DNA of 64,000 nucleotides from Planctomycetota bacterium (GTDB lineage Bacteria > Planctomycetota > Planctomycetia > Planctomycetales > Planctomycetaceae). Shown one piece after another: positions 32,169 through 54,036 of the stretch. Where the stretch lies: NCBI GenBank assembly GCA_003388505.1, contig QQVO01000021.1:1-64000 (forward strand), written 5' to 3'. Within the stretch, counting starts at the first letter, position 1. Every line of letters begins with the position of its first letter. The notes below the pieces were generated by a model, which worked only from the letters and a program-made list of their open reading frames with translations, made no database searches and was not told the origin of the DNA. Both the position numbers and the translations under genes were made by a program.

Positions 32169-32302
32169 AGCGAGACTCCTGCGGTGATGCCACTGTACCA
32201 TAACGAAAAGAACAGGTTCGGTGAGCGGCAGCGTAGCGGGTCGTGCGGGTGAAGGCCCCGATCAGGAATGTCAGGTAAATAACTTTTCAAAGGAGTTCAG
32301 AG

Positions 32303-32734
32303 ATGTCGACTGAAACAGCTTCAAACGTGTATGACGAAGTGCTCGACAACATGCGGAAGGCGGCGGAAGCCAATCTGAAGATGCAACAGGACGTCTTTCA
32401 GCAATGGACGCGGATGTGGCCCGGTTTCCCTTCGCCGCAGACGATGATGCTCGACAAGATGCGGGATTTTCAGAAGCAATGGGCCAACACGGTTTCCGAT
32501 CTGGCCCGGAAGCACCGTGACACATTCGATCGTCAGTACCAGGCGGCGCTGGAGTCTCTCGACGAGGCGTTGCGCGTCACCGAATCGACGAATCCGGAGG
32601 AATTCCGCAAGAGGACAGAGCAGCTTTGCCGCAAAACGCTCGACTGTTTGCGCGAGGTCTCCGAAGCGCAGATGAAGGAATTTCAGGACGCGATGAACCA
32701 GTGGAGCGAACTGGCCGCGAAGGCGGGATCGTAG
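32303..32734 (+). CDS. phaP: Phasin (PHA granule-associated protein)
   Basis: A 143-residue, all-helical amphipathic protein (MSTETASNVYDEVLDNMRKA) with the length and composition of phasin family proteins, which coat PHA granules. Repeated charged heptads run through residues 20-135. AAAGGAG sits seven bases before the ATG, one of the strongest ribosome binding sites in the window, as expected for an abundant protein. It lies upstream of a PHA synthase gene on the same strand with a 119-base gap containing repeat R2. Homology to the N-terminal domain of the 30311 protein is visible by eye. The symbol is by function; phasins diverge strongly. Confidence 0.85.
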   Translation: MSTETASNVYDEVLDNMRKAAEANLKMQQDVFQQWTRMWPGFPSPQTMMLDKMRDFQKQWANTVSDLARKHRDTFDRQYQAALESLDEALRVTESTNPEEFRKRTEQLCRKTLDCLREVSEAQMKEFQDAMNQWSELAAKAGS

Positions 32735-32743
32735 TGGTGGAGT

Positions 32744-32770
32744 TCTCCCCTGCGGGTCGCGGCGAAACGG
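32744..32770 (-). repeat. Dispersed repeat family R2, copy 4
   Basis: CTCCCCTGCGGGTCGCGGC followed by GAAACGG matches the reverse of copies 1 and 2 with one or two changes. It starts ten bases after the phasin stop codon, in the spacer before the PHA synthase. Confidence 0.7.
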
Positions 32771-32853
32771 AACCGGAGGCGCCGAGCGATGGATGGTCGT
32801 CCCGGTGAGCGGCGGTGAATTGGAATCGAGCGAACACGCCTCTGCGGCAGTGC

Positions 32854-34278: not shown

Positions 34279-34280
34279 CG

Positions 34281-34402
34281 AGTGCCCTGTGAGGGCTTGA
34301 TTTTCGGGTTGGCTGAAACGCTAATCCGCACGAAACCCTGCGGGATTCGTGCTTCCGACCGAACCGCCTCACCCAGAATCGTTTGCTTGACCAACCACGA
34401 GG
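34281..34402 (+). repeat. Dispersed repeat family R1, copy C
   Basis: About 120 bases starting GAGTGCCCTGTGAGGGC, with the near-perfect hairpin GCACGAAACCC-TGC-GGGATTCGTGC at 34328-34352. It begins three bases after the PHA synthase stop and ends just before the pccB start at 34408, so it forms the whole spacer. The open frame of pccB runs through it, but the residues are not carboxylase-like. Confidence 0.85.
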
Positions 34403-34407
34403 GACCT

Positions 34408-35940: not shown

Positions 35941-35977
35941 GAACCACTGGGACCTCCGCGTCTCATCATCGACCACA

Positions 35978-37963
35978 ATGTTCAGCAAGATTCTGATCGC
36001 CAATCGCGGCGAGATCGCCTGCCGCGTCATCAAGACGGCTCGCCGGATGGGAATCCGGACTGTTGCGGTCTACTCCGAGGCCGACCGCGACGCGTTGCAT
36101 ACCCTGCAGGCGGACGAGGCGGTCTGTATCGGGCCGCCGCCGTCGTCTGAGAGTTATCTCATGATCGACCGCATCCTGGAGGCGTGCCGGGAAACCGGCG
36201 CTGAGGCGGTCCATCCGGGTTACGGGTTTCTCTCGGAAAACGCCGTCTTCGCGGAGCGGCTGGCGGACGCCGGTGTGACGTTCATCGGACCGAACGTCGA
36301 GGCGATCCGCAGCATGGGGGACAAGATCACCTCGAAGCAGCTTGCGCAGTCGGCGGGCGTGAATACGATCCCGGGACATGCCGGCGTGATTTCGGGGCCG
36401 GAGGAGGCAGTCGCCATTGCGCGCGAGATCGGCTATCCGGTGATGCTCAAGGCGAGCGCGGGCGGCGGCGGGAAGGGGATGCGCATTGCGCGAAATGACG
36501 AGGAGTGTGTGGCCGGGATTGAAGCGGCCAGCCGGGAAGCGCTGTCGGCGTTCGGTGACGATCGGGTCTTTATCGAGAAGTACATCGACGAACCACGACA
36601 CATCGAGATTCAGGTGCTGGCCGATCGTCAGGGGAACGTCATCCATCTTGGGGAAAGGGAGTGCTCGCTGCAGCGCCGTCACCAGAAAGTGATTGAGGAA
36701 GCGCCGTCGCCGTTTCTCGACGCGGCGACCCGCTCGGCGATGGGAGACCAGGCGGTGGCGCTGGCCCGAGCGGTGAATTACCAGTCAGCGGGGACGGTGG
36801 AGTTCATCGTCGATCCCGATCGCAACTTCTACTTTCTGGAGATGAACACGCGGCTGCAGGTGGAGCACCCGGTGACCGAATATGTGACCGGTCTGGATCT
36901 TGTGGAAATCATGATCCGTACGGCCGCCGGCCAGACGCTGCCGCTGACGCAGTCGGACGTGCGGTTAAGCGGCTGGTCGATCGAAGCCCGGGTGTACGCC
37001 GAAGACCCGTTCCGCGGGTTTCTTCCGTCGGTGGGACGACTCGTGCGGTACCTGCCTCCCACCGAGAGTGACGCCGTGCGGGTGGATGCGGGCGTGTACG
37101 AGGGGGGCGAAGTTTCGATGTACTACGACCCGATGATCGCCAAGCTCATTACGCATGGAGAGACGCGCGAGCAGGCGCGGGAGCGAATGCGGGACGCGCT
37201 GAATGAGTTTCACGTCCGGGGCGTCTCCCACAACATCAGCTTTCTGTCGGCGCTGATTGAACACCGGCGATTTCGCGAGGGACGGCTGAGCACGAACCTG
37301 ATCGCGGAGGAGTACCCGGACGGTTTCCACCCGTCGGACGCGATTCACGACGACCCGGCCCTGTTGATCGTCGTGGCGGCGGCGGTGCACCGGAAGTACA
37401 TGGACCGCGCCGCCGGGATCAGCGGACAACTGGCCGGTTATGAGCGGACGATCGACGACGATTGGGTCGTTGTGATGAACGGCGATCAGCATCACGTCGA
37501 GACGCGGCCGGTGACCGGCGGCCACGACGTGACGTTCGGGGGCGAGCGATATCGCATCCGGAGCGAATGGCAGTTCGGGCAACCGCTGTTCAAGGGAACG
37601 ATCAACGGCACGGCGGTCTGCCTGCAGATCGAGCGGCGGAACATGATCTACCGGCTGTTCCACTGGGGTTCGCAGGTGGACGTGATGGTGCTGACGGCGC
37701 GGGCGGCGGAACTGCTGGCCTGCATGCCGGTGAAGGAGCCTCCGGATACGTCGCGGTTTCTGCTGTCTCCGATGCCCGGTTTGCTGACCCAACTGAGGGT
37801 CGACGTCGGGAACGACGTGCAGACCGGCCAGGATCTGGCTGTGATTGAAGCCATGAAGATGGAGAACGTGCTCCGCGCCGAGCGGGACGGCAAGGTGTCT
37901 CAAGTCATGGCCGCGGTGGGAGACACGCTGGCGGTGGACCAGCCGATTCTTGAATTCGAGTGA
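35978..37963 (+). CDS. pccA: Propionyl-CoA carboxylase, biotin carboxylase/BCCP (alpha) subunit
   Basis: A 661-residue biotin-dependent subunit. Residues 1-450 are the ATP-grasp biotin carboxylase (IANRGEIACRV; GGGGKGMRI for ATP; ERECSLQRRHQKVIEEAPSP; EMNTRLQVEHPVTE). A BT-type linking domain covers about 455-580. The C-terminal biotinyl domain carries the biotin lysine in EAMKMENVL, and the protein ends in PILEFE. It carboxylates its own biotin with ATP and bicarbonate and hands CO2 to PccB. The ATG at 35978 starts the conserved MFSKILIANRGEI; the upstream extension to 35921 overlaps the pccB end and is not conserved. The gene ends convergent with fbp, 43 bases apart. Confidence 0.93.
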   Translation: MFSKILIANRGEIACRVIKTARRMGIRTVAVYSEADRDALHTLQADEAVCIGPPPSSESYLMIDRILEACRETGAEAVHPGYGFLSENAVFAERLADAGVTFIGPNVEAIRSMGDKITSKQLAQSAGVNTIPGHAGVISGPEEAVAIAREIGYPVMLKASAGGGGKGMRIARNDEECVAGIEAASREALSAFGDDRVFIEKYIDEPRHIEIQVLADRQGNVIHLGERECSLQRRHQKVIEEAPSPFLDAATRSAMGDQAVALARAVNYQSAGTVEFIVDPDRNFYFLEMNTRLQVEHPVTEYVTGLDLVEIMIRTAAGQTLPLTQSDVRLSGWSIEARVYAEDPFRGFLPSVGRLVRYLPPTESDAVRVDAGVYEGGEVSMYYDPMIAKLITHGETREQARERMRDALNEFHVRGVSHNISFLSALIEHRRFREGRLSTNLIAEEYPDGFHPSDAIHDDPALLIVVAAAVHRKYMDRAAGISGQLAGYERTIDDDWVVVMNGDQHHVETRPVTGGHDVTFGGERYRIRSEWQFGQPLFKGTINGTAVCLQIERRNMIYRLFHWGSQVDVMVLTARAAELLACMPVKEPPDTSRFLLSPMPGLLTQLRVDVGNDVQTGQDLAVIEAMKMENVLRAERDGKVSQVMAAVGDTLAVDQPILEFE

Positions 37964-39336: not shown

Positions 39337-40512
39337 TCACAGCGCCAGTTGGGACCAGAGCACTCCGGCGGCGATTGCGGACCCGATTACACCGGCGACG
39401 TTCGGGGCCATGGCGTGCATGAGCAGGAAGTTGCCGGGGTCTTCCTGCTGGCCGACCATTTGCACGACCCGTGCAGAGTCCGGGACGGCCGATACGCCGG
39501 CCGCCCCGACCAGTGGGTTGATCTTCTCTTTGAAGAAGAGGTTCATCAGTTTTGCGAACAGGACGCCGCCGGCGGTGGCGACGGCGAACGAGAGGGCGCC
39601 CAGGACGAAAATCAGGATCGACTGGGGCTGCAGAAAACGCTGCGCGTTGGTGCTCGCGCCGACGCAAAAACCGAGCAGCATTGTGACGATATCGATCATC
39701 GCCGAACGTGCGGTCAGCGCCAGCCGGTCGGTAACCGCACATTCCTTCATCAGGTTTCCGAAGAACAACATTCCGATCAGCACGATTGCTCCGGGCGCCA
39801 TTGTGGTGCAGATCAGGAACGCGACGATGGGAAACAGGATGCGCTCGAGCTTCGAGACTTCGCGGGAGGGCTTCATCCGGATCAATCGTTCCTGGCGGGT
39901 GGTCAGCATCCGCATGATGGGCGGCTGAATGACCGGAACGAGGGCCATGTACGAGTAGGCGGCGATCGCGATCGCGCCCAGCAGGTCGGGCGCCAGCTTC
40001 GAGGACAGGAAGATCGCGGTGGGTCCGTCAGCACCGCCGATGATGCCGATCGCGCCGGCTTGCTGAGGAGAAAACGACAGCGTCGTCTCGCCGAAGGAAA
40101 ATGAGACCGCGAGCGCACCGAGATACGTCAGAAAGACGCCCACCTGGGCGGCGGCCCCCAGCAGGACGAGCTTGGGGTTGGAGAGCATCGTCGAGAAGTC
40201 GGTCATTGCGCCGATGCCGAGGAAGATCAGCGGCGGGTAAATCCCTTGTTCCACCCCGAAGTAGAGGTATCTGAGCACGGAACCTTCGTCGTAGACGCTG
40301 AGTGATACGCCGGCGGACGAAGGGATGTTGCCCACAATGATTCCGAAGCCGATCGGCACCAGCAGCAGCGGCTCATAGTGCTTTGCAATCGCGAGGTAGA
40401 TGAAGCATCCGGCGATCGCGATCATGATGACGTTGCCCGGCTCCAGCCCGGCAAACGCCGTCGTTTCCCAGAACTGCGCGATCTTTGTCGTGATGGATTC
40501 GAAGACGCTCAT
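39337..40512 (-). CDS. Sodium-pumping decarboxylase beta subunit (methylmalonyl-CoA decarboxylase type)
   Basis: A 391-residue very hydrophobic protein with about ten membrane segments, of the OadB/MmdB/GcdB family. Family motifs are YPPLIFLGIGAMTDFSTML, GAIGIIGGADGPTAIFLSS, LVPVIQPPIMRM (with RLIRMKP after it), and APGAIVLIGMLFFGNLMKE. The subunit decarboxylates the carboxybiotin carrier and exports sodium ions. Start ATG 40512 overlaps the previous gene's stop by one base (TGATG), so translation is coupled. Linked carboxyltransferase, biotin carrier and OadG-type genes make a complete complex. The neighbouring mutase and epimerase indicate methylmalonyl-CoA as substrate; oxaloacetate or glutaconyl-CoA are less likely. 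A symbol such as mmdB would fit if substrate is confirmed. Confidence 0.92.
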   Translation of the reverse strand: MSVFESITTKIAQFWETTAFAGLEPGNVIMIAIAGCFIYLAIAKHYEPLLLVPIGFGIIVGNIPSSAGVSLSVYDEGSVLRYLYFGVEQGIYPPLIFLGIGAMTDFSTMLSNPKLVLLGAAAQVGVFLTYLGALAVSFSFGETTLSFSPQQAGAIGIIGGADGPTAIFLSSKLAPDLLGAIAIAAYSYMALVPVIQPPIMRMLTTRQERLIRMKPSREVSKLERILFPIVAFLICTTMAPGAIVLIGMLFFGNLMKECAVTDRLALTARSAMIDIVTMLLGFCVGASTNAQRFLQPQSILIFVLGALSFAVATAGGVLFAKLMNLFFKEKINPLVGAAGVSAVPDSARVVQMVGQQEDPGNFLLMHAMAPNVAGVIGSAIAAGVLWSQLAL

Positions 40513-40868
40513 CACCGGTCTCGATGGGGAATCTTGTGCGACTGATGGTGTTGCAGGCGGGCCTCCAGGGACCAGCTCATGTCGCCCGGAGTGCGGATGT
40601 GGACAATTCGGTGGGGATGCCGCACGACCTCCGCGACAGCCGCAGCAATCACCACCAGCAATTCTTCCGGCAACTGCTCGTCCTCGACGGGCATTGCCGG
40701 GGCCGGAGAGGGATGCGCCCGCGAGAGCCAACTCGCTATTCGCGGCAGGACGGTGATGAAAGTCACGACAAGCGCAAGGGCGAGGAACACGACCAGCATG
40801 CCGGTCACTGCCAGTGCCAGGCCGTGCTCTCCGGTCAGCGGTTCCAGGTTGAATTCAATGGTGGGCAT
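40512..40868 (-). CDS. OadG-family small subunit of the sodium-pump decarboxylase
   Basis: A 118-residue protein with one N-terminal membrane helix (about residues 17-40, LALAVTGMLVVFLALALVVT), then a Pro/Ala/Glu stretch (SPAPAMPVEDEQL) and a helical segment (LPEELLVVIAAAVAEVVRHP). This is the layout of OadG/MmdD-type subunits that anchor the carboxyltransferase to the membrane and stabilise the complex. The C-terminal region ends in a His/Arg-rich tail (HHQSHKIPHRDR). It overlaps the beta-subunit start by one base and follows the biotin carrier gene by 27 bases. Low conservation of this family means the call leans on layout and neighbours. Confidence 0.82.
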   Translation of the reverse strand: MPTIEFNLEPLTGEHGLALAVTGMLVVFLALALVVTFITVLPRIASWLSRAHPSPAPAMPVEDEQLPEELLVVIAAAVAEVVRHPHRIVHIRTPGDMSWSLEARLQHHQSHKIPHRDR

Positions 40869-40895
40869 GACGTTCTGACCGCTCGGGACGGCGAC

Positions 40896-41282
40896 TCACT
40901 CCAGTTCCAACAGGACGTGTCCTTCCCGTACGGAATCGCCGTCCTTCACGTGAATGGTTTTGACCGTTCCGGCGACGTGGGCGGCGATGTGGTTTTCCAT
41001 CTTCATCGCCTCCAGAACGACCAACGGTTCTCCCTGCTTCACTTGATCCGACGGTTTCACGAGGACGGATTTGATGACCCCGGCCATGGGACTCGTGACG
41101 GCGCCGGCGGCCGCGGGGGGGTGCGGCGCGGCCTGCGCGGAGGTCGGTGCGGTGGGAGCCGGACCGGGCGGCGGCGCGACGTGATGAGGCGCTGAAACCG
41201 GCTGATACGGATCGCGCTCCGTCAGATCTTCGACAGTGACGTCGTAGGACCTGTTCCCGATTGTGATTCTCAGTCGTCTCAT
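40896..41282 (-). CDS. Biotin carboxyl carrier subunit of the decarboxylase
   Basis: A 128-residue biotin carrier. The N-terminal 25 residues (MRRLRITIGNRSYDVTVEDL) are the conserved start of MmdC/GcdC-type carriers. A Pro/Ala-rich flexible linker follows (about 28-60), and residues 62-128 are the biotinyl domain with Lys94 in EAMKMEN as the biotin site. Its flexible arm shuttles the carboxyl group from the carboxyltransferase to the membrane beta subunit. The ATG at 41282 overlaps the stop of the carboxyltransferase gene as ATGA. The ORF frame continues upstream to 41363 within that gene and is not the real start. Confidence 0.92.
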   Translation of the reverse strand: MRRLRITIGNRSYDVTVEDLTERDPYQPVSAPHHVAPPPGPAPTAPTSAQAAPHPPAAAGAVTSPMAGVIKSVLVKPSDQVKQGEPLVVLEAMKMENHIAAHVAGTVKTIHVKDGDSVREGHVLLELE

Positions 41283-42832
41283 AGGGGAATCAGTCCGTGC
41301 TTCTTGGGGGGGCGCGTTTCGCTTTTCATCAACGTGTTCTGCAGTGCGAGCGAAACGACGCATCGGGTCTGCGCAGGGGCGATGACGTCGGTAATCATTC
41401 CGTGCGAGGCCGCCATGTAAGGGGACGCGAAGCGGTCCCGGTACTCGGCGGTCAGTTTCTCGCGCAGCGCCCGTGGGTCGTCGGTCTCGGCGAGCTCCTT
41501 GCGGTACAGGACGTTGACCGCTCCCTCAGCGCCCATGACGGCGATCTCCGCCGTCGGCCAGGCGAAGACCATGTCGGCCTTGAGATCCCGGCTGCACATG
41601 GCGAGATACGATCCGCCGTATGCCTTCCGCGTGATGACCGTGATCTTGGGAACGGTCGCAGCGGAGTAGGCGAAGAGCATTTTCGCTCCGTGGCGGATGA
41701 TTCCGCCCTGTTCCTGCGCCACGCCGGGGAGAAAGCCGGGGACGTCCACGAACGTCAGCAACGGGATGTTGAACGCGTTGCAGAAGCGGATGAACCGCGC
41801 GCCCTTGTCGGACGCGTCGATGTCGAGCGTCCCCGCCTTGACCTGGGGCTGATTGGCGATGATCCCCACCACGATTCCATCGACGCGCCCGAAGCCGACG
41901 ATGATATTGCGGGCGAACTCGCGGTGGACTTCCAGGAACCGCCCGGGGTCGACGACGCGATTAATCACCTCGTACATGTCCATCGACCCCTTGGGGTCCT
42001 CGGGCACGAGGTCATTGAGCGACTCGTCGGAGTCGAGACAGATCTCTCCGGTCGGGGTGTGCGGGGGATTCTCGACGTTGTTGGGAGGGAGGTAGGAGAG
42101 CAGGTCGGAGACGATCTGCATGGCATGCTGATCGTCATCGGCGACGAAGTGCACGTTGCCGCTGATGCTTGCGTTGGCCGCAGCGCTGCCGATCTCCTCC
42201 ATCGTGCATTCGACGCCGGTGGCCGCTTTGATGACCTGCGGTCCACAGATGAACATGTTCGCGTTGGCGCGGGTCATTACGAGGAAGTCCATCAGGGCCG
42301 GAGAATAGGCCGCCCCTCCCGCGCAGTTGCCCGCAATCACGCCGATTTGAGGCACGCAGCCCGAGAGCAGGACGTTGCGATAGAAGACCTGTCCGTATCC
42401 GGAGAGTGACTCCACCGCTTCCTGAATCCGCGCGCCGCCGGAGTCGTTGATGCCGATCATCGGCATTCCGCCTTCGAGGGCGTAGTCCATGATGTCGCAG
42501 ATTTTTTTTGCGTGACGTTGTCCCAGCGCTCCGCCCCCGACGGTGGCGTCCTGGCTGAACGCGGCGGCCGGCCGGCCGTCGACGCGACCGACTCCCGTCA
42601 CAACGCCGTCACAGGGCATCGATTTTCCGGCCATGCCGAAGTCGTGGCAGCCATGTTCGACGTGCAGCCCCCACTCCTGAAACGTGCCTTCGTCGAAAAA
42701 GACATCGAGCCGCTCCCGCGCCGAGAGCATGCCCTTTTCGCGGCGCGTCTCATGGCGAGCCGCTCCGCCGCCCTCGCGTAGGCGATTGCGGCGCGTTTCA
42801 AGATCATCCAGCAATTCTTCGCGGATGCTCAT
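41279..42832 (-). CDS. Methylmalonyl-CoA decarboxylase-type carboxyltransferase subunit
   Basis: A 517-residue acyl-CoA carboxyltransferase. Conserved features include [32 protein letters not shown] and VPGFLPGVAQEQGGIIRHG. The specificity position after AYGGSY is Leu410, where the ATP-dependent enzyme at 34408 has Asp407. With its biotin carrier, OadG-type and beta-subunit genes downstream it fits the alpha subunit of sodium-pumping methylmalonyl-CoA decarboxylase (MmdA-like), which transfers the carboxyl group from methylmalonyl-CoA to biotin, leaving propionyl-CoA. A run of eight T in the plus strand (in KKICD codons) is a possible slippage site but the frame is intact. It overlaps the next gene as ATGA. 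Confidence 0.88.
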   Translation of the reverse strand: MSIREELLDDLETRRNRLREGGGAARHETRREKGMLSARERLDVFFDEGTFQEWGLHVEHGCHDFGMAGKSMPCDGVVTGVGRVDGRPAAAFSQDATVGGGALGQRHAKKICDIMDYALEGGMPMIGINDSGGARIQEAVESLSGYGQVFYRNVLLSGCVPQIGVIAGNCAGGAAYSPALMDFLVMTRANANMFICGPQVIKAATGVECTMEEIGSAAANASISGNVHFVADDDQHAMQIVSDLLSYLPPNNVENPPHTPTGEICLDSDESLNDLVPEDPKGSMDMYEVINRVVDPGRFLEVHREFARNIIVGFGRVDGIVVGIIANQPQVKAGTLDIDASDKGARFIRFCNAFNIPLLTFVDVPGFLPGVAQEQGGIIRHGAKMLFAYSAATVPKITVITRKAYGGSYLAMCSRDLKADMVFAWPTAEIAVMGAEGAVNVLYRKELAETDDPRALREKLTAEYRDRFASPYMAASHGMITDVIAPAQTRCVVSLALQNTLMKSETRPPKKHGLIPL

Positions 42833-43153: not shown

Positions 43154-44179
43154 TCAGGTCGATTCCTTCCGATGTTTTTCCGCGCGGCTGTAAGCTTTGA
43201 GGATTTCCCGTGCGGCGCTTTCGGGGGGTATCGTTCCGGCCTGAACGTCTGATTCCAGACGCTCGCGGATCGCCCGGACTGCGGGATCAAGTCGCACCGA
43301 CTGCTTGACGCGCTCGTCGACGATCGACCACATCCAGCGGATGTTCTGGCCGCTGCGGCGCTGGGCCAGTTCGCCGCTCTTCCGCAATCGGGTGCAATGC
43401 TGATCGACGGCCGTCCAGACGTCGCTGATATGTTCATTTCTGAGTGCGCTGCAGGTCAGCACCGGAGGGGCCTGAGCCGATCGGCCGAGGAGCGTCTCCA
43501 GCGCGGTCGCGTACTGGCGGGCCGCCAGTTGCGCGGCGGTGAGCATCCGGCCGTCGGCTTTGTTGATGACAACGACGTCGACGAGTTCCAGCAGGCCCCG
43601 TTTGATTCCCTGCAGGTCGTCGCCGGCGCCGGGCAGCATGAGCGCCACGAAGCAATCGGTCATCTCGGCGACCATGCTCTCCGATTGTCCCACGCCGACC
43701 GTCTCGACGATGACCACGTCGAAGCCGGCCGCCTCGCAAGCCAGTATGCTTTCGCGCGTCTTGCGGGCCACGCCGCCGAGCGTCCCGGCGGAGGGGGACG
43801 GCCGGATAAACGCCTCGGGTGCGACGGACAGCCGCGTCATGCGAGTTTTGTCGCCGAGAATGCTGCCGCCGCTGATTCCACTGGAGGGGTCAACCGCGAG
43901 GACAGCCACACGTTTGCCGTCGCCGACGAGTTGCAGCCCCAGTGCTTCAATAAATGTGCTCTTTCCGACACCGGGCACTCCCGTGATGCCGACTCTCACG
44001 GCCTGTCCGGTATGAGGCAGGAGTTTCGCCAGCAGCGCCTCGGCCTGGACCTGGTGGTTTGCGTTGTTGGATTCAATCAGCGTCAAGGCCCGGGCCAGAG
44101 TGGTGATGTCGCACCGTCTGACCCCTTCGTAGTATTCGTCGACCGTCAGTTCGCGTCGGCGCGGAATCTCGCTCGTCAT
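43154..44179 (-). CDS. meaB: MeaB, methylmalonyl-CoA mutase-associated GTPase
   Basis: A 341-residue G3E-family GTPase that guards and reloads adenosylcobalamin in methylmalonyl-CoA mutase. The P-loop GVPGVGKST is at residues 67-75. Mg/switch motifs are VDPSSGISGGSILGDKTRM, ETVGVGQSE and the guanine motif NKAD. The C-terminal helical dimerisation arm (about 270-335) is present. The gene lies 12 bases after the mutase large subunit, the usual arrangement. It ends a run that starts at the thiolase gene; the decarboxylase genes begin 321 bases further on. Confidence 0.95.
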   Translation of the reverse strand: MTSEIPRRRELTVDEYYEGVRRCDITTLARALTLIESNNANHQVQAEALLAKLLPHTGQAVRVGITGVPGVGKSTFIEALGLQLVGDGKRVAVLAVDPSSGISGGSILGDKTRMTRLSVAPEAFIRPSPSAGTLGGVARKTRESILACEAAGFDVVIVETVGVGQSESMVAEMTDCFVALMLPGAGDDLQGIKRGLLELVDVVVINKADGRMLTAAQLAARQYATALETLLGRSAQAPPVLTCSALRNEHISDVWTAVDQHCTRLRKSGELAQRRSGQNIRWMWSIVDERVKQSVRLDPAVRAIRERLESDVQAGTIPPESAAREILKAYSRAEKHRKEST

Positions 44180-44191
44180 GGTGCTGACCGG

Positions 44192-46393
44192 TCAATCCTG
44201 CGCTGACACTGCGTCGCTTAAAGAGATCCCCAGGCGGTCTGCGAGATCCCGCACCAGCTTTTCGGCCGCCTCGCTGACAACCGTTCCCGGTCCGAAGACC
44301 GCCGCAGCCCCGGCTTCCGACAAAGCCGCCTTGTCCTCGGGGGGAATCACACCGCCGGCCACGATCATCAGGTCTTCGCGGCCCAGTGCGGCAAGCTCGC
44401 GGCGAAGTTGCGGCACGAGAGTGAGGTGACCGGCCGCCAGGGAACTGACGCCGACAATGTGCACGTCGTTTTCGACAGCCTGACGCGCCGTCTCCGCCGG
44501 GGTCCGGAATAACGGACCGATGTCGACGTCGAATCCCAGATCGGCGAAGGCGCTGGCGATCACGCGCTGGCCCCGATCGTGTCCGTCCTGCCCCATTTTC
44601 GCGACAAGGATCCTTGGTCTGCGGCCTTCCCTCTCCGCGAAACGCTCGACCAGACGGCGGACCGTGGCGGCGGCCTGTCCGTTTTCAAGAGCAGCCGCGT
44701 AGACTCCGCGGACCGACTGCATCGGCGCTTCGTAGCGCCCGAAGACCTTCTCCAACGCACTGCTGATTTCGCCCACGGTCGCCTTAGCTCTGGCGGCATT
44801 CACGGCCAGTTCCAGCAGATTGCCGGACCTTTTCTCGGCGGCGTGCGTGAGCGCCTGCAGCGCGTCGTCGACCTGGCTCTGATCACGCTCTTCGCGAAGT
44901 TGTTTAAGTCCGGCGATCTGGCTCTCGCGGACAGCCGAGTTATCGATATGCAAAACCTTGACTTGCTCCTCCTCTTTCAGGCGATGCTTGTTCACCCCGA
45001 TGACGGTCTGCCGGCCGGAGTCAATCCGCGCCTGGGTGCGGGCGGCGGCTTCTTCGATTCGCATTTTCGGGATGCCGGCCTGAATGGCGCTGGTCATCCC
45101 TCCCAGTTCCTCGACCTCGCGGATGTGTTCCCAGGCGCGTTGAGCAAGATCGTGCGTGAGCCGTTCGACAAAGTAGCTCCCGCCCCACGGATCGACGACC
45201 CGGCAGGTATCTGTTTCCTGCTGAAGAAAGAGTTGCGTGTTGCGGGCAATCCGGGCGGAGAAGTCGGAGGGCAACGCGAGCGCCTCGTCCAGAGCGTTGG
45301 TATGCAGCGACTGTGTGTGCCCATGAGCGGCCGCCATCGCTTCGAGACACGTGCGAACAACGTTGTTGTAGACGTCCTGGGCGGTCAGGCTCCAACCGCT
45401 GGTCTGGCAGTGAGTTCGCAGAGAAAGGCTTTTGGGATTCTTCGGAGAGAACTGGTGGATCAGCCTGGCCCAGATCATGCGGGCGGCGCGCAGCTTCGCG
45501 ACTTCCATGAAGTAGTTCATGCCGATGGCCCAGAAGAACGACAGCCGTGGGCAGAACGCATCGACGTCGAGACCCGCCTCCCGGCCGGTGCGGACGTACT
45601 CGAGTCCGTCCGCCAGGGTGTAGGCGAGTTCCAGATCGGCGGTCGCACCGGCTTCCTGCATGTGGTAGCCGCTGATGCTGATGCTGTTGAACTTCGGCAT
45701 CCGCTGGCTGGCGTAGCGGAAGATGTCGGCGATGATGCGAATGCTGGGTTCGGGCGGATAGATGTAGGTGTTTCGAACCATGAACTCCTTGAGAATGTCG
45801 TTCTGGATCGTCCCGGAGAGCTGCTCCGGCGGCACGCCCTGTTCTTCGGCCGCCACGATGTAGAGCGCCATGACCGGCAGCACGGCGCCGTTCATGGTCA
45901 TTGAGACGCTCATTCGATCGAGCGGAATTCCATCGAAGAGCGTGCGCATGTCGTAGATGCTGTCGATGGCGACTCCCGCCATGCCGACGTCGCCGGCGAC
46001 CCGCTCGTGATCGGAGTCGTAGCCGCGGTGTGTGGCCAGATCGAAGGCGATGCTCAAACCCTTCTGGCCGGCAGCCAGGTTGCGCCGATAAAAGGCATTC
46101 GACTCTCTGGCTGTCGAGAACCCCGCGTACTGTCGGACCGTCCACGGTCGCTGCACGTACATCGTCGCATAGGGCCCCCGAAGGAATGGGGGGAGCCCCG
46201 GCATGGTCTCCAGATGGTCGAGTCCTTCCCGGTCGGCGGACGTCGCGAGAACCGGCACCGGGATCTGTTCGGGAGTCTGCCAGACGAGGGTGTCTTCCGC
46301 ATCGGCAACGGCTGCACGCCAGTCGTCGATCGTCGCGGAAGCGGAGTGATCCGTTCCGAGAGAAATTTCGGCAAAGTTCGGGATCGAAGTCAT
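44192..46393 (-). CDS. mutB: Methylmalonyl-CoA mutase, large (catalytic) subunit
   Basis: A 733-residue adenosylcobalamin-dependent isomerase that interconverts succinyl-CoA and (R)-methylmalonyl-CoA. Residues 50-560 are the TIM-barrel catalytic domain ([40 protein letters not shown]). The C-terminal B12 domain holds [13 protein letters not shown], with the DxHxxG cobalt-ligating histidine, and the later motif [10 protein letters not shown]. It starts four bases after the small-subunit stop, so the two are co-transcribed. Length is normal for the large subunit. Confidence 0.96.
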
Positions 46394-46397: not shown

Positions 46398-48524
46398 TCA
46401 GCACGGGGTCTTCAGAACGTTCTCTTCCCGCAGCATTTCCTGCAATGTGGCCAATACGTCACACGAAATGAAGATAAAGCGGTCGACGCCTGCCTCCCGC
46501 CAGTTGGATTCGTGATCGCCCGAATTTCCCACCAGTACAACAGATCGCGCCCCAGCCTGCTTGAGCTTGGCAGCCAGTTCGGGGACTGTCTCGGGATAGA
46601 GTTTGTCGGACGAACAGATGACGGCGATGCCTGCACCGCTGTTCTTGAACGCGGCAGCCGCCGCATCGGCATCTGCGAAGCCCGCGTCACCGAGAACCTC
46701 GAACCCTCCCGCGGCAAAGAAATTCTTCGCATAGGCTGCCCGGGCGGTGTAGTGGGCCAAGGGGCCCATGTTCGCAAGGAACACTTGCGGCCTTTGGCCG
46801 CCCGCAACCTGGCAGGCATCGCTCGCGTCGCGCAACGCCTCAAACGGTTCCGCGAATCTGCGGCAGGGCAGGGGAGTGATCGAAGCGGACTCGACCTGAT
46901 GGAATCGCAGTGCGCTCGCAATCTGCCCGATCGTCGCTCCGGCTTCGGCGGCTTCGATCGCTGCGGCGACGGGCTCTGCGTCAAATGAAGACCGACTGAG
47001 ATCGACTGCCTGGCGCGCTCTTGTGGTTCGTGCCCTGGAGGCTTCAGCGATACCTGCAAGATCGACTGGGGAATGTTCGACCGGCTGCTCGTTCACGTCG
47101 GGAAACTCGCTGACGCCGGTGATTCCCTGCTTCCGCCGGGCAATGTCCTTGGCGCGTGGGGTAAAGGCCGAATCAATCTGACCGGCAACCCAGCCACTCT
47201 TGAGCGCCGCGAGCATGCCTCCCTGTCGTTCGATCTCCTGAAAGATCTCCCATCCCTTTTCCGCGAGTTGCTGCGTAAATCGATCGAGAAACCAACTGCC
47301 GCCGGCCGGGTCGATCACGCGGTTCAAGTGGGCCTCCTCCATCAGCACCAAGGCGGCATTTCGAGCCTGCCGACGGCTGAAAGCGTCCGGCAGTCCGAGC
47401 AGTGCGTCGAACGGAACGGACGTGACGATTTCGGCTCCTCCCAAACCGGCTGCAAACAGCGCCACCGTGTTGCGCAGCATGTTGACGTACGGGTCGCGGC
47501 GCGTCAGCACGCGGTGGCCGACACGAACATGCAGCCGCATGCCGCCGCTTTCCGGGGAACCGCCGCTGGCTTCGATGACGCGGGACCAAAGTTGACGGGC
47601 CGCCCGCAGTTTCGCGATCGCCAGAAAGTGATGCGTGCCCACACACATCTGGAAGAGGAATTGCCCGGCAGCGGAATCAATCGGAACGCCGCGCTCCGTC
47701 AGAGCGCGAAGGTATTCGACCGCTGTAGCGATCCCGAAGGCGAGATCCTGAGCGGCCGTTGCACCGGCATCGTGGTAGGGGGACGTGTCGACGCCGACGG
47801 CCGTCACCTGCGGGCAGTTGTCGGCGGTCCACTCGGCGAGTTCCGCCATCGAGTCGAGAGCGGCGGACTCCGCAACGGGCAGTCTGCCGCGCCGAGCCAG
47901 TGTGCCGAGCGGGTCGGCGTTGAATGCGCCGCGGCAATCGGAGGGCGAGATTCCGCGCCGTTGCCAGGTCGCAATCAGCAGTGCCGCAGCGGGGAGGAAA
48001 GCGGCCCCACTGTCCAGGGCGACCGGAACATTCAGCAGGTCGACGTCTGCCAGAAGCTGGTTCAGATCGTCGGCCGAGTAGACCGTCATTCCGTCCCGAC
48101 CTACGAGTTCCTGCGCGGCTTCCTGATCGGGATCGAGGCCGGCGCGAGCGGCGGCATCGAGTCGCAGGAGCAGCGACGTTGCACCTCCTTCCAGATCGTC
48201 GTGGATTTCGCGATGGGCGGTTTCCATGTGGGGGTGAGCGAACTCCTGCCGGACGTCCCAACCGCCGGCCGCCGAACCGAGCGGACTCGATCCGCGAATG
48301 AACGGGGCGAATCCCGGAAAGCCGAGCGGGTCGTCTCCTTCAACCGCGTCGCGGGGCGAATAGACCGGCTGAATCTCCAATCCATCGTAAGTCCGCGTGA
48401 CCAGCTTCTTTTCAAACGGCGCGCCCTGGAGCGACTCTTCGACGACGGCCCGCCACTCGTCGTATCCGACGGCGGGGAATTCGTCACCGATGCTGAACTC
48501 GTTCGGCAGACTCGTAGTCATCAT
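46398..48524 (-). CDS. mutA: Methylmalonyl-CoA mutase, small subunit
   Basis: A 708-residue homologue of the catalytic subunit that forms the alpha/beta heterodimer. It keeps the overall mutase fold ([36 protein letters not shown]). In the B12-like domain the motif reads [11 protein letters not shown] instead of the DxHxxG form, so it cannot bind cobalamin, as is known for MutA. Two consecutive ATG codons open the gene (48524, 48521). It lies 33 bases after the epimerase gene and four before mutB. Confidence 0.93.
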
Positions 48525-48557: not shown

Positions 48558-48968
48558 CTAAGCCCCGGCCGGCTGGCACAGTTCCGTCAAAACGCCGAAG
48601 GTGCTTTTTGGATGCATGAAGGCGATCTGCATGTGGTGTGCCCCGCGGCGCGGTTGCTCGTCAATCATCCGCAGGCCCGATTGCTGCAGTTCCTTGATGC
48701 GAGCCCTGATGTCGTCCACGGTATACGCCACATGATGCAGTCCCTCGCCCCGCTTTTCGAGGAACTTTGCCACGGCGCTTTCCGGATCGGTCGGTTCGAG
48801 GAGTTCGACCCGCACATCGCCCGCGCGAAAAAACGCCACGCGGACCTTCTGGCTCGGAACGTCTTCGAACCCTTCGAACTCCAGCCCCAGCGTGTCTTCG
48901 TAGTACGCTTTCTGTTCGTCGATCGAACGGACCGCAATACCGATGTGATTCAGCGACTCGACGGACAT
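48558..48968 (-). CDS. mce: Methylmalonyl-CoA epimerase
   Basis: A 136-residue VOC-fold metalloenzyme that interconverts (S)- and (R)-methylmalonyl-CoA, linking carboxylase/decarboxylase to mutase. The family pattern is clear: LNHIGIAVRSID (metal His), YYEDTLGLEF, VRVELLEPT, GEGLHHVAYTVDDI, MIDEQPRRGAHHMQIAFMHP and TELCQP (metal Glu). The start at 48968 overlaps the 3' end of the UbiB-like gene by 19 bases, so it is co-transcribed with it. Length is standard. Confidence 0.95.
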   Translation of the reverse strand: MSVESLNHIGIAVRSIDEQKAYYEDTLGLEFEGFEDVPSQKVRVAFFRAGDVRVELLEPTDPESAVAKFLEKRGEGLHHVAYTVDDIRARIKELQQSGLRMIDEQPRRGAHHMQIAFMHPKSTFGVLTELCQPAGA

Positions 48969-50494
48969 GGCTCCCCTCTCTTAGCGATTTCTGGTTGCGG
49001 AACGACAGCCGAACCACGTCGCTGAAGCGTTTGCAGGATATCGATTGTGTGTCCAGTCCAGAAACGCGCGGTTGCGGCCGGACCGCTCCAGAACGTTCTC
49101 GTCAGATCGAGGTTTGAAAGCCGGGTCGCACACCTGCGAGACAGTGGATGCTGAAACCACCGCCCGGGCCATTCTTGCGCAAAATGCCGCAGGAACTCGG
49201 AGAGCAGCGCCCGGTCGAGGAGGCCGTCGGACTCACCGACTTCGGCGACCACTCCCTCCAACGAGTGCAGTGACTTCCGGAAGAGCATGAGGTCCGGCCC
49301 GACGCGCAGCCGCGCGTCCTGCGTGGCGTCGTCCAGCATCCCGATGAGCCAATTCAGTCCCGGAAACCGGCCGCGTCGAATCTGTTTCAATCGGCGTTCA
49401 ATGACGAATCTGAGTTCCGCGCGATTGAGCCGCTCGGGATCTCCCAAGTCCTCGAGCACAGCCGCGATGTGTTCCGCATCGAGAGAGACGCCGCCGAGAA
49501 TCAACTGGGCCACGGCGATTCGTTCCGTTTCTCCCAGGCGACCGACCAGGCTCCAGTCGAGAATCGCGAGGCGACCTTCATCTGTCAGAAACAGATTGCC
49601 GGCGTGCGGGTCTCCGTGGAACAGCGCCGAATCGGCCGGCGAGAACACCGGGCGAGCGATTAACGTCCGCGCCAGGAGTGCTGCCAGGCGACGCCTTCCT
49701 CCAGGTTGCTTCAAACGGTGGCTTGTGACCTTGTCCCCGGTCACCCGCTCCATCGCCGTGACACGTGCGGTGCAATAATCGTACAGTGCCGGGATCTGGA
49801 CATCCGGTTCGTTGGCGTAGAAATCACGGGCCTGGCGAAGGTGCCGCTGCTCGTTTTCAAGCTGCACTTCGTCGGCCAGCTTTTCGCGGACCTGCTGGAA
49901 GGATTCGCGATAATCCAGATGCGGAATCTGCAGGTCGTCGCAACGGTCGTCGAGAGACTCTCCGACCTGCTCGAGCAGCGATAACTCGCGCGCCAGTCGG
50001 GCTTCGATGCCGGGCTTGAGGATCTTGAAGACGCCCGGTTGATCACCACCTTTGTGCGCGAATGGGATCACGACCGCCACGCTGGCCTCGGCAATGGCGG
50101 GCGGCTTGAGTGCGACGCCTCGAAGCTCGAGTGGACCAAGCTCTGCGGTCAGCAGTTCTTCGATTTTTTTGAGCGGGACAGTCGGGGCCATCGACTCGAG
50201 TTTGCGGAATTGACGTCGCAGTTCCGGATCGAGGCGCTGATCGCGCGCCAGGATCTGCCCCAACTTGTGCAGGACGGGGCAACTCCGGGCAAGCTCTCCC
50301 AGGCGTCTTGAGAACGAAGCGTCCGGCGGCAGCGCCGCCTGTGCGCGGAGCACCCCTCGTTGGTCTTCGTCGGGCAATCCGCTGAGAAACATCGCCAGCG
50401 CATCGCGGATCGGTCGTGCGAAGTGCGCGGAATCGCGCGGCAGCACGTCCTGCAACAGCGACTCGTCGAGCAGTGATTCCCAGGGGGACGACAT
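48950..50494 (-). CDS. UbiB/ADCK-like atypical protein kinase in a PHA/methylmalonyl-CoA operon
   Basis: A 514-residue ABC1/UbiB-type kinase-like protein. The KxGQ motif (KLGQ, residues 77-80) is followed by a helix (LRRQFRKLESM). The modified nucleotide loop is EASVAVV, with a Lys in VFKILKPG, the catalytic loop is HGDPHAGN (293-300) and the metal motif is LDWSLVG (312-318, DFG position as DWS). UbiB relatives act as ATPases in quinone and lipid biology. None is known to me to act on PHA, so the job here is open. It starts two bases after the PHA synthase stop (TGA-CT-ATG) and overlaps the epimerase gene, so it is surely in the operon. The C-terminal 150 residues show no strong membrane helix. 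Confidence 0.8.
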   Translation of the reverse strand: MSSPWESLLDESLLQDVLPRDSAHFARPIRDALAMFLSGLPDEDQRGVLRAQAALPPDASFSRRLGELARSCPVLHKLGQILARDQRLDPELRRQFRKLESMAPTVPLKKIEELLTAELGPLELRGVALKPPAIAEASVAVVIPFAHKGGDQPGVFKILKPGIEARLARELSLLEQVGESLDDRCDDLQIPHLDYRESFQQVREKLADEVQLENEQRHLRQARDFYANEPDVQIPALYDYCTARVTAMERVTGDKVTSHRLKQPGGRRRLAALLARTLIARPVFSPADSALFHGDPHAGNLFLTDEGRLAILDWSLVGRLGETERIAVAQLILGGVSLDAEHIAAVLEDLGDPERLNRAELRFVIERRLKQIRRGRFPGLNWLIGMLDDATQDARLRVGPDLMLFRKSLHSLEGVVAEVGESDGLLDRALLSEFLRHFAQEWPGRWFQHPLSRRCATRLSNLDLTRTFWSGPAATARFWTGHTIDILQTLQRRGSAVVPQPEIAKRGEPCPSSR

Positions 50495-50496: not shown

Positions 50497-51606
50497 TCAA
50501 TCCGATCGAGCTGCCAGCCACCCTTCGATGTGCGGCCAGGTATTCTTTTCCGCTCCGCGGCCGGCCATGATGCCGATGTGTCCGCCGCGAACTCGCAAGA
50601 CTTCCTTGTCTTCACTGCCGACCACGTTCATGATGCCCTCCGACTGGCAGGGCGGCGTGATATGGTCGGCCTCGGCGATGACGTTCAGCAGATTGGCACG
50701 CAGCTTGTGCAGGTCGACCGTCTCGCCCCGCAACGCCATCGTGCCTTCCATCAGGCGGTTCTCTTTGTAGAAGTCGTTAATCAACTGCTGATACGCTCCG
50801 CCCGCCATGGGGATGATGTCGCGCACCCAGGTGTTCATGGCATGCCAGGCGTCGACCGCTCCAGGTTTTTCGATGTTGTCCCACAACATCATGTAGCTGC
50901 CGAAGAAGTTTTCCACCGGCTTGAGCATTTTGGCGCCGGTGTCGATCATCTCGCCCGGTACGTTGCCCAGTTTCTGCACGATGGTGTCCGCATTGAAGGC
51001 GGAGTGGCTCGACCAGCGCGTGAAGCCTCCGGCTGACTTGTCGGAAAAATCGAGCGGAGCAGTGAGGAGAATCAGGTTCTTGAGTCCGTCGTCGGGGCGT
51101 AGGGCGGCGTACATCGTGCTGATCAGCGCGCCCAGGCACCATCCGAGCATGCTGAACTCGCTGCAGCCGGAGACATGCTTGAGTTTGCGAACGATGCGGG
51201 GCAGATACTCGAGGGTGTAGTCGTCGAACGTGAGGTTCTTGTCTTCCGGCCCCGGAGCGCCCCAGTCGAGCAGATAGAGATCGTAGCCGCGCTGGAGCAT
51301 ATATTCGGCGAAGCTGTGTCCCGGCCGGAGGTCGAGGACGTGCGGCCGGTTCATGATCGCGAAGACCATCAGCAACGGGATCCGTTTCCGCTCCGTTTCT
51401 GGAACTGTCGGGATAAAGCGATACAACTTCGCCTTGTTGAGCGCCCAGACCTGTTCCTTGGGGGTCTGGGCGATCTTCGCGTCGGTCGTCACCACCCGGT
51501 TGAAGCGGTCCCAGTTCTCGGCCACGCGATGCCACGCGCTGCACATGTCTGAAAACATCGGAACCTGCGGCGGCGTCTCGGCAACGGGAGTCGGTTGGTC
51601 GCTCAT
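50497..51606 (-). CDS. phaC: PHA synthase, class III PhaC-like
   Basis: A 369-residue alpha/beta hydrolase-type PHA synthase, the length of class III PhaC catalytic subunits. Catalytic residues are Cys157 (GWCLGA), Asp314 (AEADH) and His343 (GGHIG). Further family segments are PLLMVFAIMNRPHVLDLRPG and DLYLLDWGAPGPEDKNLTFD. The box GxCxGA instead of GxCxGG is unusual. The ATG overlaps the stop of the PhaE-like gene as ATGA, so the pair are translated together. It is distinct in sequence from the synthase at 32854. Confidence 0.93.
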   Translation of the reverse strand: MSDQPTPVAETPPQVPMFSDMCSAWHRVAENWDRFNRVVTTDAKIAQTPKEQVWALNKAKLYRFIPTVPETERKRIPLLMVFAIMNRPHVLDLRPGHSFAEYMLQRGYDLYLLDWGAPGPEDKNLTFDDYTLEYLPRIVRKLKHVSGCSEFSMLGWCLGALISTMYAALRPDDGLKNLILLTAPLDFSDKSAGGFTRWSSHSAFNADTIVQKLGNVPGEMIDTGAKMLKPVENFFGSYMMLWDNIEKPGAVDAWHAMNTWVRDIIPMAGGAYQQLINDFYKENRLMEGTMALRGETVDLHKLRANLLNVIAEADHITPPCQSEGIMNVVGSEDKEVLRVRGGHIGIMAGRGAEKNTWPHIEGWLAARSD

Positions 51607-51956
51607 GATCCCTGGTCTCCCGGCTTGGGTGGCTGCAAACTCTCGTCCAGCTTCGCCTCTATGTCATCGAGTCGCATCTCGATGTTTGTCAGTCGTTCAG
51701 CGATTCGCGTCATGTCGTCGCGGGTCGGCAGGTTGAGCCCCGCCATCGTCTGTGACATGCTCGATTCGACCGCCTTCTGAAACGGGCCGGAACTGGTCAG
51801 CCAGGCGTCGAGCATGGCGGCAGTTGACTCGGCATACGCTTCCGACTGCACAAGATTGACCATCATCTTCGCCCAGGCATCCATGTTCGCATCGCGAACA
51901 CTCTTCAGGATCCCGGTCGGATCGAGCGGGTTGAATTGTTCTTCCGGATTGGTCAT
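51603..51956 (-). CDS. PhaE-like/phasin-like accessory subunit of PHA synthase
   Basis: A 117-residue all-helical protein (MTNPEEQFNPLDPTGILKSV). It ends in a heptad-repeat helix (ERLTNIEMRLDDIEAKLDES), the feature at the C-terminus of PhaE subunits. It is much shorter than typical PhaE, so it may be a minimal PhaE or a phasin. ATGA overlap with the phaC gene strongly links it to that synthase as its activating partner. The frame continues upstream to 52004 without a better start. The symbol is withheld because short PhaE-like proteins are not well defined. Confidence 0.75.
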   Translation of the reverse strand: MTNPEEQFNPLDPTGILKSVRDANMDAWAKMMVNLVQSEAYAESTAAMLDAWLTSSGPFQKAVESSMSQTMAGLNLPTRDDMTRIAERLTNIEMRLDDIEAKLDESLQPPKPGDQGS

Positions 51957-52030
51957 GCCACTCCTCGCGCGTCGCGCTTCACAGTTGTCCGGCCGGCCCT
52001 GCACGGTCGTGTTTCGATCGAAGGAAACGG

Positions 52031-52777
52031 CTACTCCATGAACGCGCCTCCGTTGACGTTAATCTGCTGACCGGTGATGTAATCGCCGTCCGCCACGAGG
52101 AACGTGACCGCCCTGGCGATCTCCTCCGGATGGGCGAAACGGGCCATCGGGATGCCTCCCTTGATTTTCGTCTGCAGTGCGGGGGGAACGGCATCGAACA
52201 TGTCGGTTTCGGTGTATCCGGGAGCGATCGTGTTGACGGTGATGCCCGAATGCACGAGTTCGGCCGCGGCGGTCCGCGTGAAGGCGATAATGCCGCCCTT
52301 GCTGGCGCTGTAATTCGCCTGCCCGAGAGCGGGCACCTGGCCGTTCATGGAACTGATGTTGATGATCCGCCCGTAGCTCTGCGAGGTCATGATGGGGATA
52401 GCGGCCGACGTGCAGAAGAAGCAGCCATTGAGGTTGGTGTGAATCACCTCAACCCACTGCTCGTCGGTCATCTTGGGCAACAGTGCGTCGCGAGTGATGC
52501 CGGCGTTATTGACCAGGACATCCAGGTGGGTGAACTCTTCGGCGACGCGGGCCACCATGGCTCGGGCCTCCTGGGCATTGCCGATGTCGGCCTGGGCCAG
52601 AATGCAGGCGCCGCCCATCCTTGTGATTTCCTCCGCGACCTCCTGAGCCTTCGCCTCGTTGTGTGCGAAGTTGATCGCCACTCGGGCCCCTTCGCGGGCG
52701 AGTTCCAGCGCGATCGCCCGCCCGATGCCGCGAGAGGCTCCTGTGACCAACGCCGTCCTTCCGTCTACGCGTCCCAT
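52031..52777 (-). CDS. phaB: Acetoacetyl-CoA reductase (PhaB/FabG-type SDR)
   Basis: A 248-residue classical SDR that reduces 3-oxoacyl-CoA to (R)-3-hydroxyacyl-CoA with NADPH. It has TGASRGIG, NNAGITRD, the PhaB-like SSMNGQVPALGQANYSASKG (catalytic Ser, Tyr, Lys) and IAPGYTETDM. SSMNGQ and the operon context favour PhaB over fatty-acid FabG, though cross-activity is possible. It lies between the thiolase gene and the PhaE-like gene on the same strand, with gaps of 77 and 74 bases. Confidence 0.9.
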   Translation of the reverse strand: MGRVDGRTALVTGASRGIGRAIALELAREGARVAINFAHNEAKAQEVAEEITRMGGACILAQADIGNAQEARAMVARVAEEFTHLDVLVNNAGITRDALLPKMTDEQWVEVIHTNLNGCFFCTSAAIPIMTSQSYGRIINISSMNGQVPALGQANYSASKGGIIAFTRTAAAELVHSGITVNTIAPGYTETDMFDAVPPALQTKIKGGIPMARFAHPEEIARAVTFLVADGDYITGQQINVNGGAFME

Positions 52778-52854: not shown

Positions 52855-54036
52855 TTACAGGTGCTCGAAGACTGCGGCGATGCCCTGTCCGCCGCCGATG
52901 CACATCGTCACGAGAGCGCGCTTCGCTCCGGTTCGGTTCAATTCGTACAACGCCTTGATCACCAGGATCGCGCCGGTGGCCCCGATGGGGTGCCCCAGGG
53001 AGATGCCACTGCCGTTCGGATTGGTGCGGTCCATTGGCAATTCAAGTTCGCGGGCCACGGCAATCGCCTGGGCCGCGAACGCTTCGTTCACTTCAAAGAC
53101 GTCGATGTCGTCCAGTCCGAGTCCGGTTTTCTCCAGCAATCGCTTCACGGCCGGGACCGGACCAATTCCCATGTACTTGGGATCGACGCCGGCGTAGGAG
53201 TAATCAACGAGCCGCGCCATCGGCTTCAAACCGCGCTTTTCTGCGAATTCACGGTCCGCCAGCGTGACGGCCGCGGCCGCATCGTTGATGCTCGACGCGT
53301 TCCCGGGGGTGACCGACCCTTCGGGGTCAAACACGGTGGGCAACCGGGCGAGCTTCTCGACGGTCGTGCCGTATCGCACCGTCTCGTCCGTCTCGAACGG
53401 CACTTTGTCCCGCTTGACCTTGATCTCGATGGGAACGATCTGCGCCTTGAAGTAGCCGTGGTCGATGGCGGCTCCGGCTCGGCGGTGACTTTCGACGGCC
53501 AGTTCGTCCTGGTCCTGACGGGTGATGCCGTACTTCTTGGCGACATTCTCCGCCGTGACGCCCATGTGGCAGTCGTCGAACGGATCGCTGAGGGCGCCAA
53601 CCATCATGTCGACCAGCGTGGTGTCGTTCATTCGCGCACCAAATCGCATGGCGGGCGAGCTATACGGACTGCGGCTCATGTTCTCGGCGCCGCCTGCGAC
53701 CGCGGCGTTCGCATCCCCCAGCATGATCGTCTGGGCCGCCGTGATGATGGCCTGCAAACCACTGCCACAGAGGCGATTCAGCGTGAGTGCAGGCGTTTCG
53801 TGCGGCAATCCGCCGTTCACTCCGGCCACGCGGGCCAGGTAGTGGTCGTGCGCGTCGGTATGAATGATGTTGCCAAAGACGACGTGGCCGAAGTCGCTTG
53901 CATCCACGCCGGACCGTTTGACCGCCTCCTTGACACACTTCGCCGCCATCACGGTGGGCGGAGTGTCTTTGAGGCTTCCGCCGTACCCCCCGATTGCTGT
54001 CCGCACACCACTCAAGATCACGACTTCGCGCGACAT
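52855..54036 (-). CDS. phaA: Acetyl-CoA acetyltransferase (3-ketothiolase)
   Basis: A 393-residue thiolase that condenses two acetyl-CoA, or acetyl-CoA with propionyl-CoA, to 3-ketoacyl-CoA. Nucleophilic Cys90 is in NRLCGSGLQAI; GHPIGATG and CIGGGQG hold the catalytic His and second Cys. VFEVNEAFAAQ is also conserved. It is the first gene of the minus-strand PHA/methylmalonyl-CoA run. The ATG at 54036 gives the canonical MSREVVILSGVRTAIG. Substrate range (BktB-like C5 use) cannot be judged from sequence. Confidence 0.92.
   Translation of the reverse strand: MSREVVILSGVRTAIGGYGGSLKDTPPTVMAAKCVKEAVKRSGVDASDFGHVVFGNIIHTDAHDHYLARVAGVNGGLPHETPALTLNRLCGSGLQAIITAAQTIMLGDANAAVAGGAENMSRSPYSSPAMRFGARMNDTTLVDMMVGALSDPFDDCHMGVTAENVAKKYGITRQDQDELAVESHRRAGAAIDHGYFKAQIVPIEIKVKRDKVPFETDETVRYGTTVEKLARLPTVFDPEGSVTPGNASSINDAAAAVTLADREFAEKRGLKPMARLVDYSYAGVDPKYMGIGPVPAVKRLLEKTGLGLDDIDVFEVNEAFAAQAIAVARELELPMDRTNPNGSGISLGHPIGATGAILVIKALYELNRTGAKRALVTMCIGGGQGIAAVFEHL

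Follow-up and report, generated by a model that had tools for sequence, protein, structure and literature searches.

Proteins of the UbiB/COQ8/ABC1K group are widespread and adopt a kinase fold, yet their biochemical job is unsettled, and hypotheses about it come mostly from quinone biosynthesis. UbiB-fold proteins have an ATPase activity that is stimulated by analogues of CoQ intermediates (PMC7263595), COQ8 has been proposed to use its ATPase to pull hydrophobic CoQ precursors out of the membrane, and Cqd1 and Cqd2 have been proposed to distribute CoQ (PMC8346625). The described systems closest to the protein analyzed here are UbiB/COQ8A (ADCK3; PF03109, TIGR01982), the soluble mycobacterial UbiB-fold proteins MABP-1/Rv3197/MSMEG_1954 (NF050082), and the ABC1K proteins of plant plastoglobules, which account for 6 of 30 core proteins of these bodies (PMC4915526). 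Among open-access papers, we found none tying UbiB, AarF or ABC1 to PHA, granules or phasins.

A UbiB-like gene in a PHA/methylmalonyl-CoA operon

The window (i.e., the whole 64,000-nucleotide stretch of DNA that was analyzed) carries a UbiB-like gene, the sole long gene in its part of the sequence, which is read from the minus strand with an ATG at 50494 and a stop ending at 48950 (Table 1). A sequence-only reading of this DNA had placed the gene at these coordinates, two bases after phaC and overlapping mce by 19 bases, and all three statements held: the TGA of phaC ends at 50497, 2 bases from the ATG, and the mce gene (TIGR03081) starts at 48968. The strand had been absent from that reading. 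Given this tight spacing, the UbiB-like gene is predicted to be co-transcribed with phaC and mce.

Along the minus strand, a bktB thiolase, a phaB-type reductase, a small synthase partner, phaC and the UbiB-like gene are followed by the epimerase, the small and then the large subunit of methylmalonyl-CoA mutase, and MeaB. Downstream of MeaB lie genes for a carboxyltransferase, a biotin carrier and the gamma and beta subunits of OAD; these genes, at 39337-42832, probably encode a Na+-pumping methylmalonyl-CoA decarboxylase. Such a gene set can convert succinyl-CoA to propionyl-CoA and on to C5 monomers, and it is possible that, by way of this decarboxylase, the mutase, the epimerase and BktB, the operon feeds C5 (3-hydroxyvalerate) monomers from succinyl-CoA into a PHBV-type polymer. 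The operon PhaC and its relatives at five related loci (L010-L014) share the active-site box GWCLGA and retain Cys, Asp and His; the corresponding box of the window's class III PhaC2 reads GYCMGG. This PhaC2 belongs to a second PHA cluster (30311-37963), giving the genome two PHA synthases, and is possibly a PhaE-PhaC fusion. With two PhaC and one PhaR in the window, the host genome of this UbiB-like protein is itself a carrier of PHA genes.

Table 1. Features of the window around the UbiB-like gene and in the second PHA cluster.
Feature	Position	Strand	Evidence
Reductase with N-terminal extension	30311-31522	+	Second PHA cluster
PhaR (PHB accumulation regulator)	31668-32201	-	PF07879 80.9 bits, above cut-off
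Weakly phasin-like protein	32303-32734	+	Second PHA cluster
Second PHA synthase with N-terminal extension	32815-34278	+	TIGR01836 389 bits, above cut-off, aligned from residue 157
Propionyl-CoA carboxylase beta and alpha	34282-37963	+	Second PHA cluster
Carboxyltransferase, read as methylmalonyl-CoA decarboxylase alpha subunit	41279-42832	-	PF01039 590 bits; position shared with L010-L014
MeaB GTPase	43154-44179	-	TIGR00750 and NF006958, both above cut-off
Methylmalonyl-CoA mutase large subunit	44192-46393	-	NF006944 1303 bits, above cut-off
Methylmalonyl-CoA mutase small subunit	46398-48524	-	TIGR00642 496 bits
Methylmalonyl-CoA epimerase (mce)	48558-48968	-	TIGR03081 157 bits, above cut-off
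UbiB/ABC1-like protein, PHA-associated subfamily, 514 aa	48950-50494	-	PF03109 95 bits; COQ8A Z 21.9; subfamily clade
PhaC, class III-type PHA synthase subunit	50497-51606	-	TIGR01836 E 4e-98, 328 bits, slightly below cut-off 365
Small synthase partner (PhaE/PhaR-like)	51603-52004	-	TIGR02132 phaR_Bmeg E 3e-9, below cut-off; position conserved
Acetoacetyl-CoA reductase type SDR (PhaB)	52031-52777	-	TIGR01829 277 bits, below cut-off 302
BktB-type beta-ketothiolase	52855-54036	-	NF006552 642 bits, above cut-off

Protein family, fold and catalytic residues

The earlier assignment to a UbiB-like family was borne out by a match to ABC1 (PF03109, 95.4 bits, E 3.8e-27, curated cut-off 22.9), and the motifs it named are in place: KxGQ (K77-L-G-Q80), HGDPHAGN (293-300) and DWS (313-315). 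Among solved structures, the best sequence matches were MSMEG_1954 (the top match), Rv3197 and COQ8A. Structure comparison of an AlphaFold model built from 40 aligned sequences (pLDDT 91.8, pTM 0.87) gave a Z of 21.9 and an rmsd of 3.9 over 341 residues with COQ8A, in an alignment spanning model residues 60-442 which hence covers the KxGQ domain as well as the kinase domain; RIO and APH kinases ranked behind (Z 10-13). The conserved UbiB positions are occupied by K77, Q80, K157, E209, E215, H293, D295, H297, G299, N300 and D313, with K77 and Q80 invariant across 81 subfamily and 30 canonical sequences, and the catalytic K, E, D and N and the metal D are all kept (K157, E209, E215, D295, N300, D313). 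Since every catalytic UbiB position that was checked is retained, the window protein likely binds and hydrolyzes ATP.

Alongside this shared fold and catalytic apparatus, several features distinguish the protein from UbiB/COQ8A. It scores 151.5 bits against a cut-off of 487.55 for the ubiquinone UbiB equivalog (TIGR01982), with no closer family model among NCBIfam, and it carries HGDPHAGN and DW where UbiB/COQ8A mostly have HADPHPGN and DFG/DYG. It also places a glutamate in the alanine-rich loop, lacks a strong C-terminal hydrophobic segment (maximum hydropathy 1.33 past the catalytic loop), and sits among PHA rather than quinone genes. The mycobacterial MABP-1 group resembles it in structure (Z 17-22), but the window protein reaches only 34 bits with NF050082, for which the cut-off is 800.

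A sequence subfamily apart from canonical UbiB/ABC1

Scanning bacterial genomes gave 80 relatives of the window protein (27-61% identity). When canonical ABC1 proteins were added and a tree was built by a quick method, with a program warning on long branches, these relatives and the window protein fell on one side of a branch with an SH-aLRT of 100. A subfamily HMM recovered one member per genome at 450-702 bits in 34 genomes, versus 79-186 bits for the canonical ABC1 proteins, which were found in 28 of these 34. Judged by sequence, the clade is clearly apart from canonical UbiB/ABC1, and the subfamily has no name yet. A canonical ABC1 also lies on another contig of the window's genome, making it unlikely that the window protein is the only quinone UbiB of its host.

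The subfamily is marked by six diagnostic residues, all present in the window protein: R84 (T in canonical proteins), E100 (Q), E136 (A/S/T), Q216, A298 (P) and W314 (F/Y/C). E136 sits in the alanine-rich loop, which is critical in yeast Coq8, where A197V abolishes CoQ and A197G raises ATPase activity (PMC7263595); by analogy, a fixed glutamate there may change activity. As a rule, the subfamily is devoid of the hydrophobic C-terminal segment (median maximum hydropathy 1.37 vs. 2.31 in canonical proteins, 30 of 30 of which reach at least 1.6). Proteins from Thiohalocapsa and two delta-type MAGs (L015-L018, L023) are ~50% identical to the planctomycete ones and those from Phycisphaerae 36-40%, a pattern for the former which suggests transfer between phyla.

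Linkage to PHA genes across genomes

Each of the six nearest relatives (L009-L014, from the Rhodopirellula/Rubripirellula/Stieleria group) also has the phaC-ubiB-epimerase order, embedded in the larger operon where the contig reaches far enough; the order is hence not unique to this genome. As both the gene and its position are kept in these six related genomes at 55-61% protein identity, we reject a chance position. In the family to which the window belongs, a sample of 26 genomes gave no other strong match.

PHA-gene neighbors in varying arrangements were also found in Acidobacteriota and several Desulfobacterota. At L039 (Desulfobacterales), a WS/DGAT-hydrolase protein precedes a PhaR gene that overlaps the UbiB-like gene by 4 bases; in Desulforhopalus singaporensis (L074), the order is PhaE-PhaC, PhaR, reductase and UbiB, and at L033 PhaC, reductase and UbiB. 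PhaE lies downstream of the UbiB-like gene at L057, genes for a lipase-like protein, for a protein weakly related to phasins and for PhaR lie downstream at L072 and L076, and many Terriglobia loci hold the gene amid phasin-like, PhaR and lipase-like genes. Altogether, about seven PHA arrangements around the subfamily, planctomycete operon included, look independent. Within the same genomes, PhaR is no more than 10 kb away for 8 of 34 subfamily genes vs. 1 of 40 canonical ABC1 genes, and PhaC for 5 of 34 vs. 0 of 40.

A protein family flanks the PhaR-hydrolase-UbiB genes at L061 (4239-5168 and 9632-10447, both on the minus strand) and other Terriglobia loci. These proteins had no convincing Pfam or NCBIfam match, and HMMs did not identify them as phasins; sequence habit and position earn them the label phasin-like, and they are possibly undescribed phasins.

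Linkage to PHA genes as a universal rule was rejected. The UbiB-like genes of Thiohalocapsa, two delta-type MAGs and Phycisphaerae have no PHA neighbors, nor do those at 13 further loci from unselected samples, mainly Desulfobacterales, on contigs of 5-20 kb (a few being repeats of earlier strains). Among Desulfobacterota, the majority of members lie apart from PHA genes. Other than the families of PhaR, phasin-like and lipase-like proteins, no conserved non-PHA neighbor across phyla emerged from clustering, and at the loci read no quinone-synthesis gene was recognized adjoining the UbiB-like gene. The sequence-only reading had made a new role conditional on conserved linkage to PHA genes: this linkage is upheld in the Rhodopirellula/Rubripirellula/Stieleria group and, in other arrangements, in Acidobacteriota and Desulfobacterota, whereas the exact operon is narrowly distributed and many members are unlinked.

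Genome-wide co-occurrence with PHA genes

Subfamily members co-occur with PhaR and PhaC genome-wide even where they are unlinked. Of 34 subfamily genomes searched for PhaR (PF07879), 29 have it, and of 36 searched for a class III-type PhaC, 32 were positive; in each search, Caulobacter was the only positive among 14 well-known control genomes. Among 116 Desulfobacterales genomes drawn around one member, 16 of which have the subfamily, PhaR occurs in 16/16 subfamily genomes vs. 58/116 overall (p-value 4.6e-6) and PhaC in 14/16 vs. 52/116 (p-value 2e-4); the same test on a wider phylum sample gave 3/3 vs. 21/198 (p-value 0.001), kinship being ignored in all three. PHA-positive genomes are larger than others, and when only genomes of at least 4 Mb are considered, a rough adjustment for size, the PhaR association has a p-value of ~0.003 with unlisted negatives extrapolated and of 0.10 with listed negatives alone. 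Profiling of Planctomycetota yielded only two strong members in 392 sampled genomes, too few for statistics. Overall, the subfamily is found mostly in PHA-gene-bearing genomes of several phyla, and its association with PHA storage is real and conserved, and seems not to have been described before.

Some genomes depart from this pattern. Two Terriglobia (L061 and L063) have the UbiB-like gene adjoining PhaR and lipase-like genes, with PhaC absent by either model (these genomes may be incomplete), and four Nitrospirota genomes have PhaC with PhaR absent. In an Acidobacteriota subgroup that comprises L041, L045 and their kin, the N-termini resemble signal peptides, which would place the UbiB-fold protein outside the cytoplasm. 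PhaR and PhaC are both absent from the genome of L041, the one tested in this subgroup, for which the PHA tie may not hold.

Possible function of the PHA-associated UbiB-like proteins

The reading we favor, tentatively and at close to an even chance, is that of a UbiB-fold ATPase from a PHA-associated subfamily whose site of action is the surface of inclusions made of PHA or of mixed storage lipids. The protein, lacking the usual C-terminal membrane anchor, would be produced alongside the PHA polymerization genes and operate on the inclusion surface, where ATP binding and hydrolysis could drive the entry of a hydrophobic molecule, be it a lipid, a quinone or an acyl intermediate, into the granule boundary or its exit from there or, alternatively, be coupled to the building of the synthase/phasin coat. 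This would be akin to the action proposed for COQ8/UbiB at membranes and for plastoglobule ABC1K at plastid lipid droplets. The latter, UbiB-fold proteins residing at lipid-storage bodies (PMC4915526), serve as a comparison of working mode only: their cargo is prenyl lipids, and we infer the granule location of the bacterial protein.

The new role envisaged in the earlier reading had been either granule lipid handling or control of synthase. Partly conserved linkage and genome-wide co-occurrence are in line with a new role. Both options are compatible with the sequence, but a role at the inclusion surface is favored over direct control of the synthase, because some genomes with no detectable PhaC (L061, L063) have members next to genes for PhaR and for phasin-like and lipase-like proteins and a wax-ester/TAG synthase domain lies close by at L039. 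A protein acting directly on the polymerization machinery, either as a regulatory kinase or as a chaperone resembling a pseudokinase, with PhaC, PhaR or a phasin as its target, would fit the kinase fold, the position immediately after phaC in planctomycetes and the 4-base overlap with PhaR at L039. However, the protein keeps the KxGQ domain, the part of COQ8 that shuts out protein substrates (PMC8346625), the nearby PHA genes vary between clades, and the two Terriglobia have the gene and PhaR with PhaC undetected, so that we consider such direct action unlikely. We regard it as distinctly unlikely that the protein is a standard UbiB of quinone or isoprenoid-lipid metabolism, linked to PHA indirectly through larger, aerobic or metabolically versatile genomes carrying both. 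Precedent within the family, the larger size of PHA-positive genomes and the many unlinked members speak for it, but a second, canonical ABC1 is present in most subfamily genomes and in the window's own, the canonical genes show no such PHA linkage, and neither the operon position nor the neighbors recognized at other loci point to quinone synthesis.

That the gene is an operon passenger functionally unconnected to storage would agree with the confinement of the exact operon to one planctomycete group, yet is highly improbable in view of the genome-wide co-occurrence and of linkages to PHA genes in other phyla that look independent. Least probable of all is an APH-like kinase with a small-molecule substrate in the PHA or propionyl-CoA pathway: HGDPHAGN and DW are similar to APH motifs, the APH match (PF01636, 49 residues) falls slightly below its cut-off (22.7 vs. 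23.2 bits) and APH structures reach Z 10-11, but the Z values of UbiB structures (17-22) are roughly double, the KxGQ domain is retained, and methylmalonyl-CoA genes are missing from several of the other PHA arrangements.

If the inclusion-surface reading is extended across the subfamily, bacteria would own a dedicated UbiB-type ATPase of storage inclusions (PHA, possibly wax-ester/TAG), a counterpart of plastoglobule ABC1K, which we see as a possibility somewhat short of an even chance. A PHA-tied subfamily whose host genomes for the most part also have a canonical paralogue offers a setting in which to test UbiB transport of hydrophobic molecules at the surface of membranes or droplets, and its hosts include named strains (Stieleria, Rhodopirellula, Thiohalocapsa, Desulforhopalus). 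The protein is also a candidate accessory factor for bioplastic production. These observations suggest that bacteria, as plant plastids do, employ UbiB-type ATPases at storage-lipid bodies and, if this is true, the handling of hydrophobic cargo at the surface of storage bodies would belong to the tasks of the UbiB family in general, over and above quinone synthesis.
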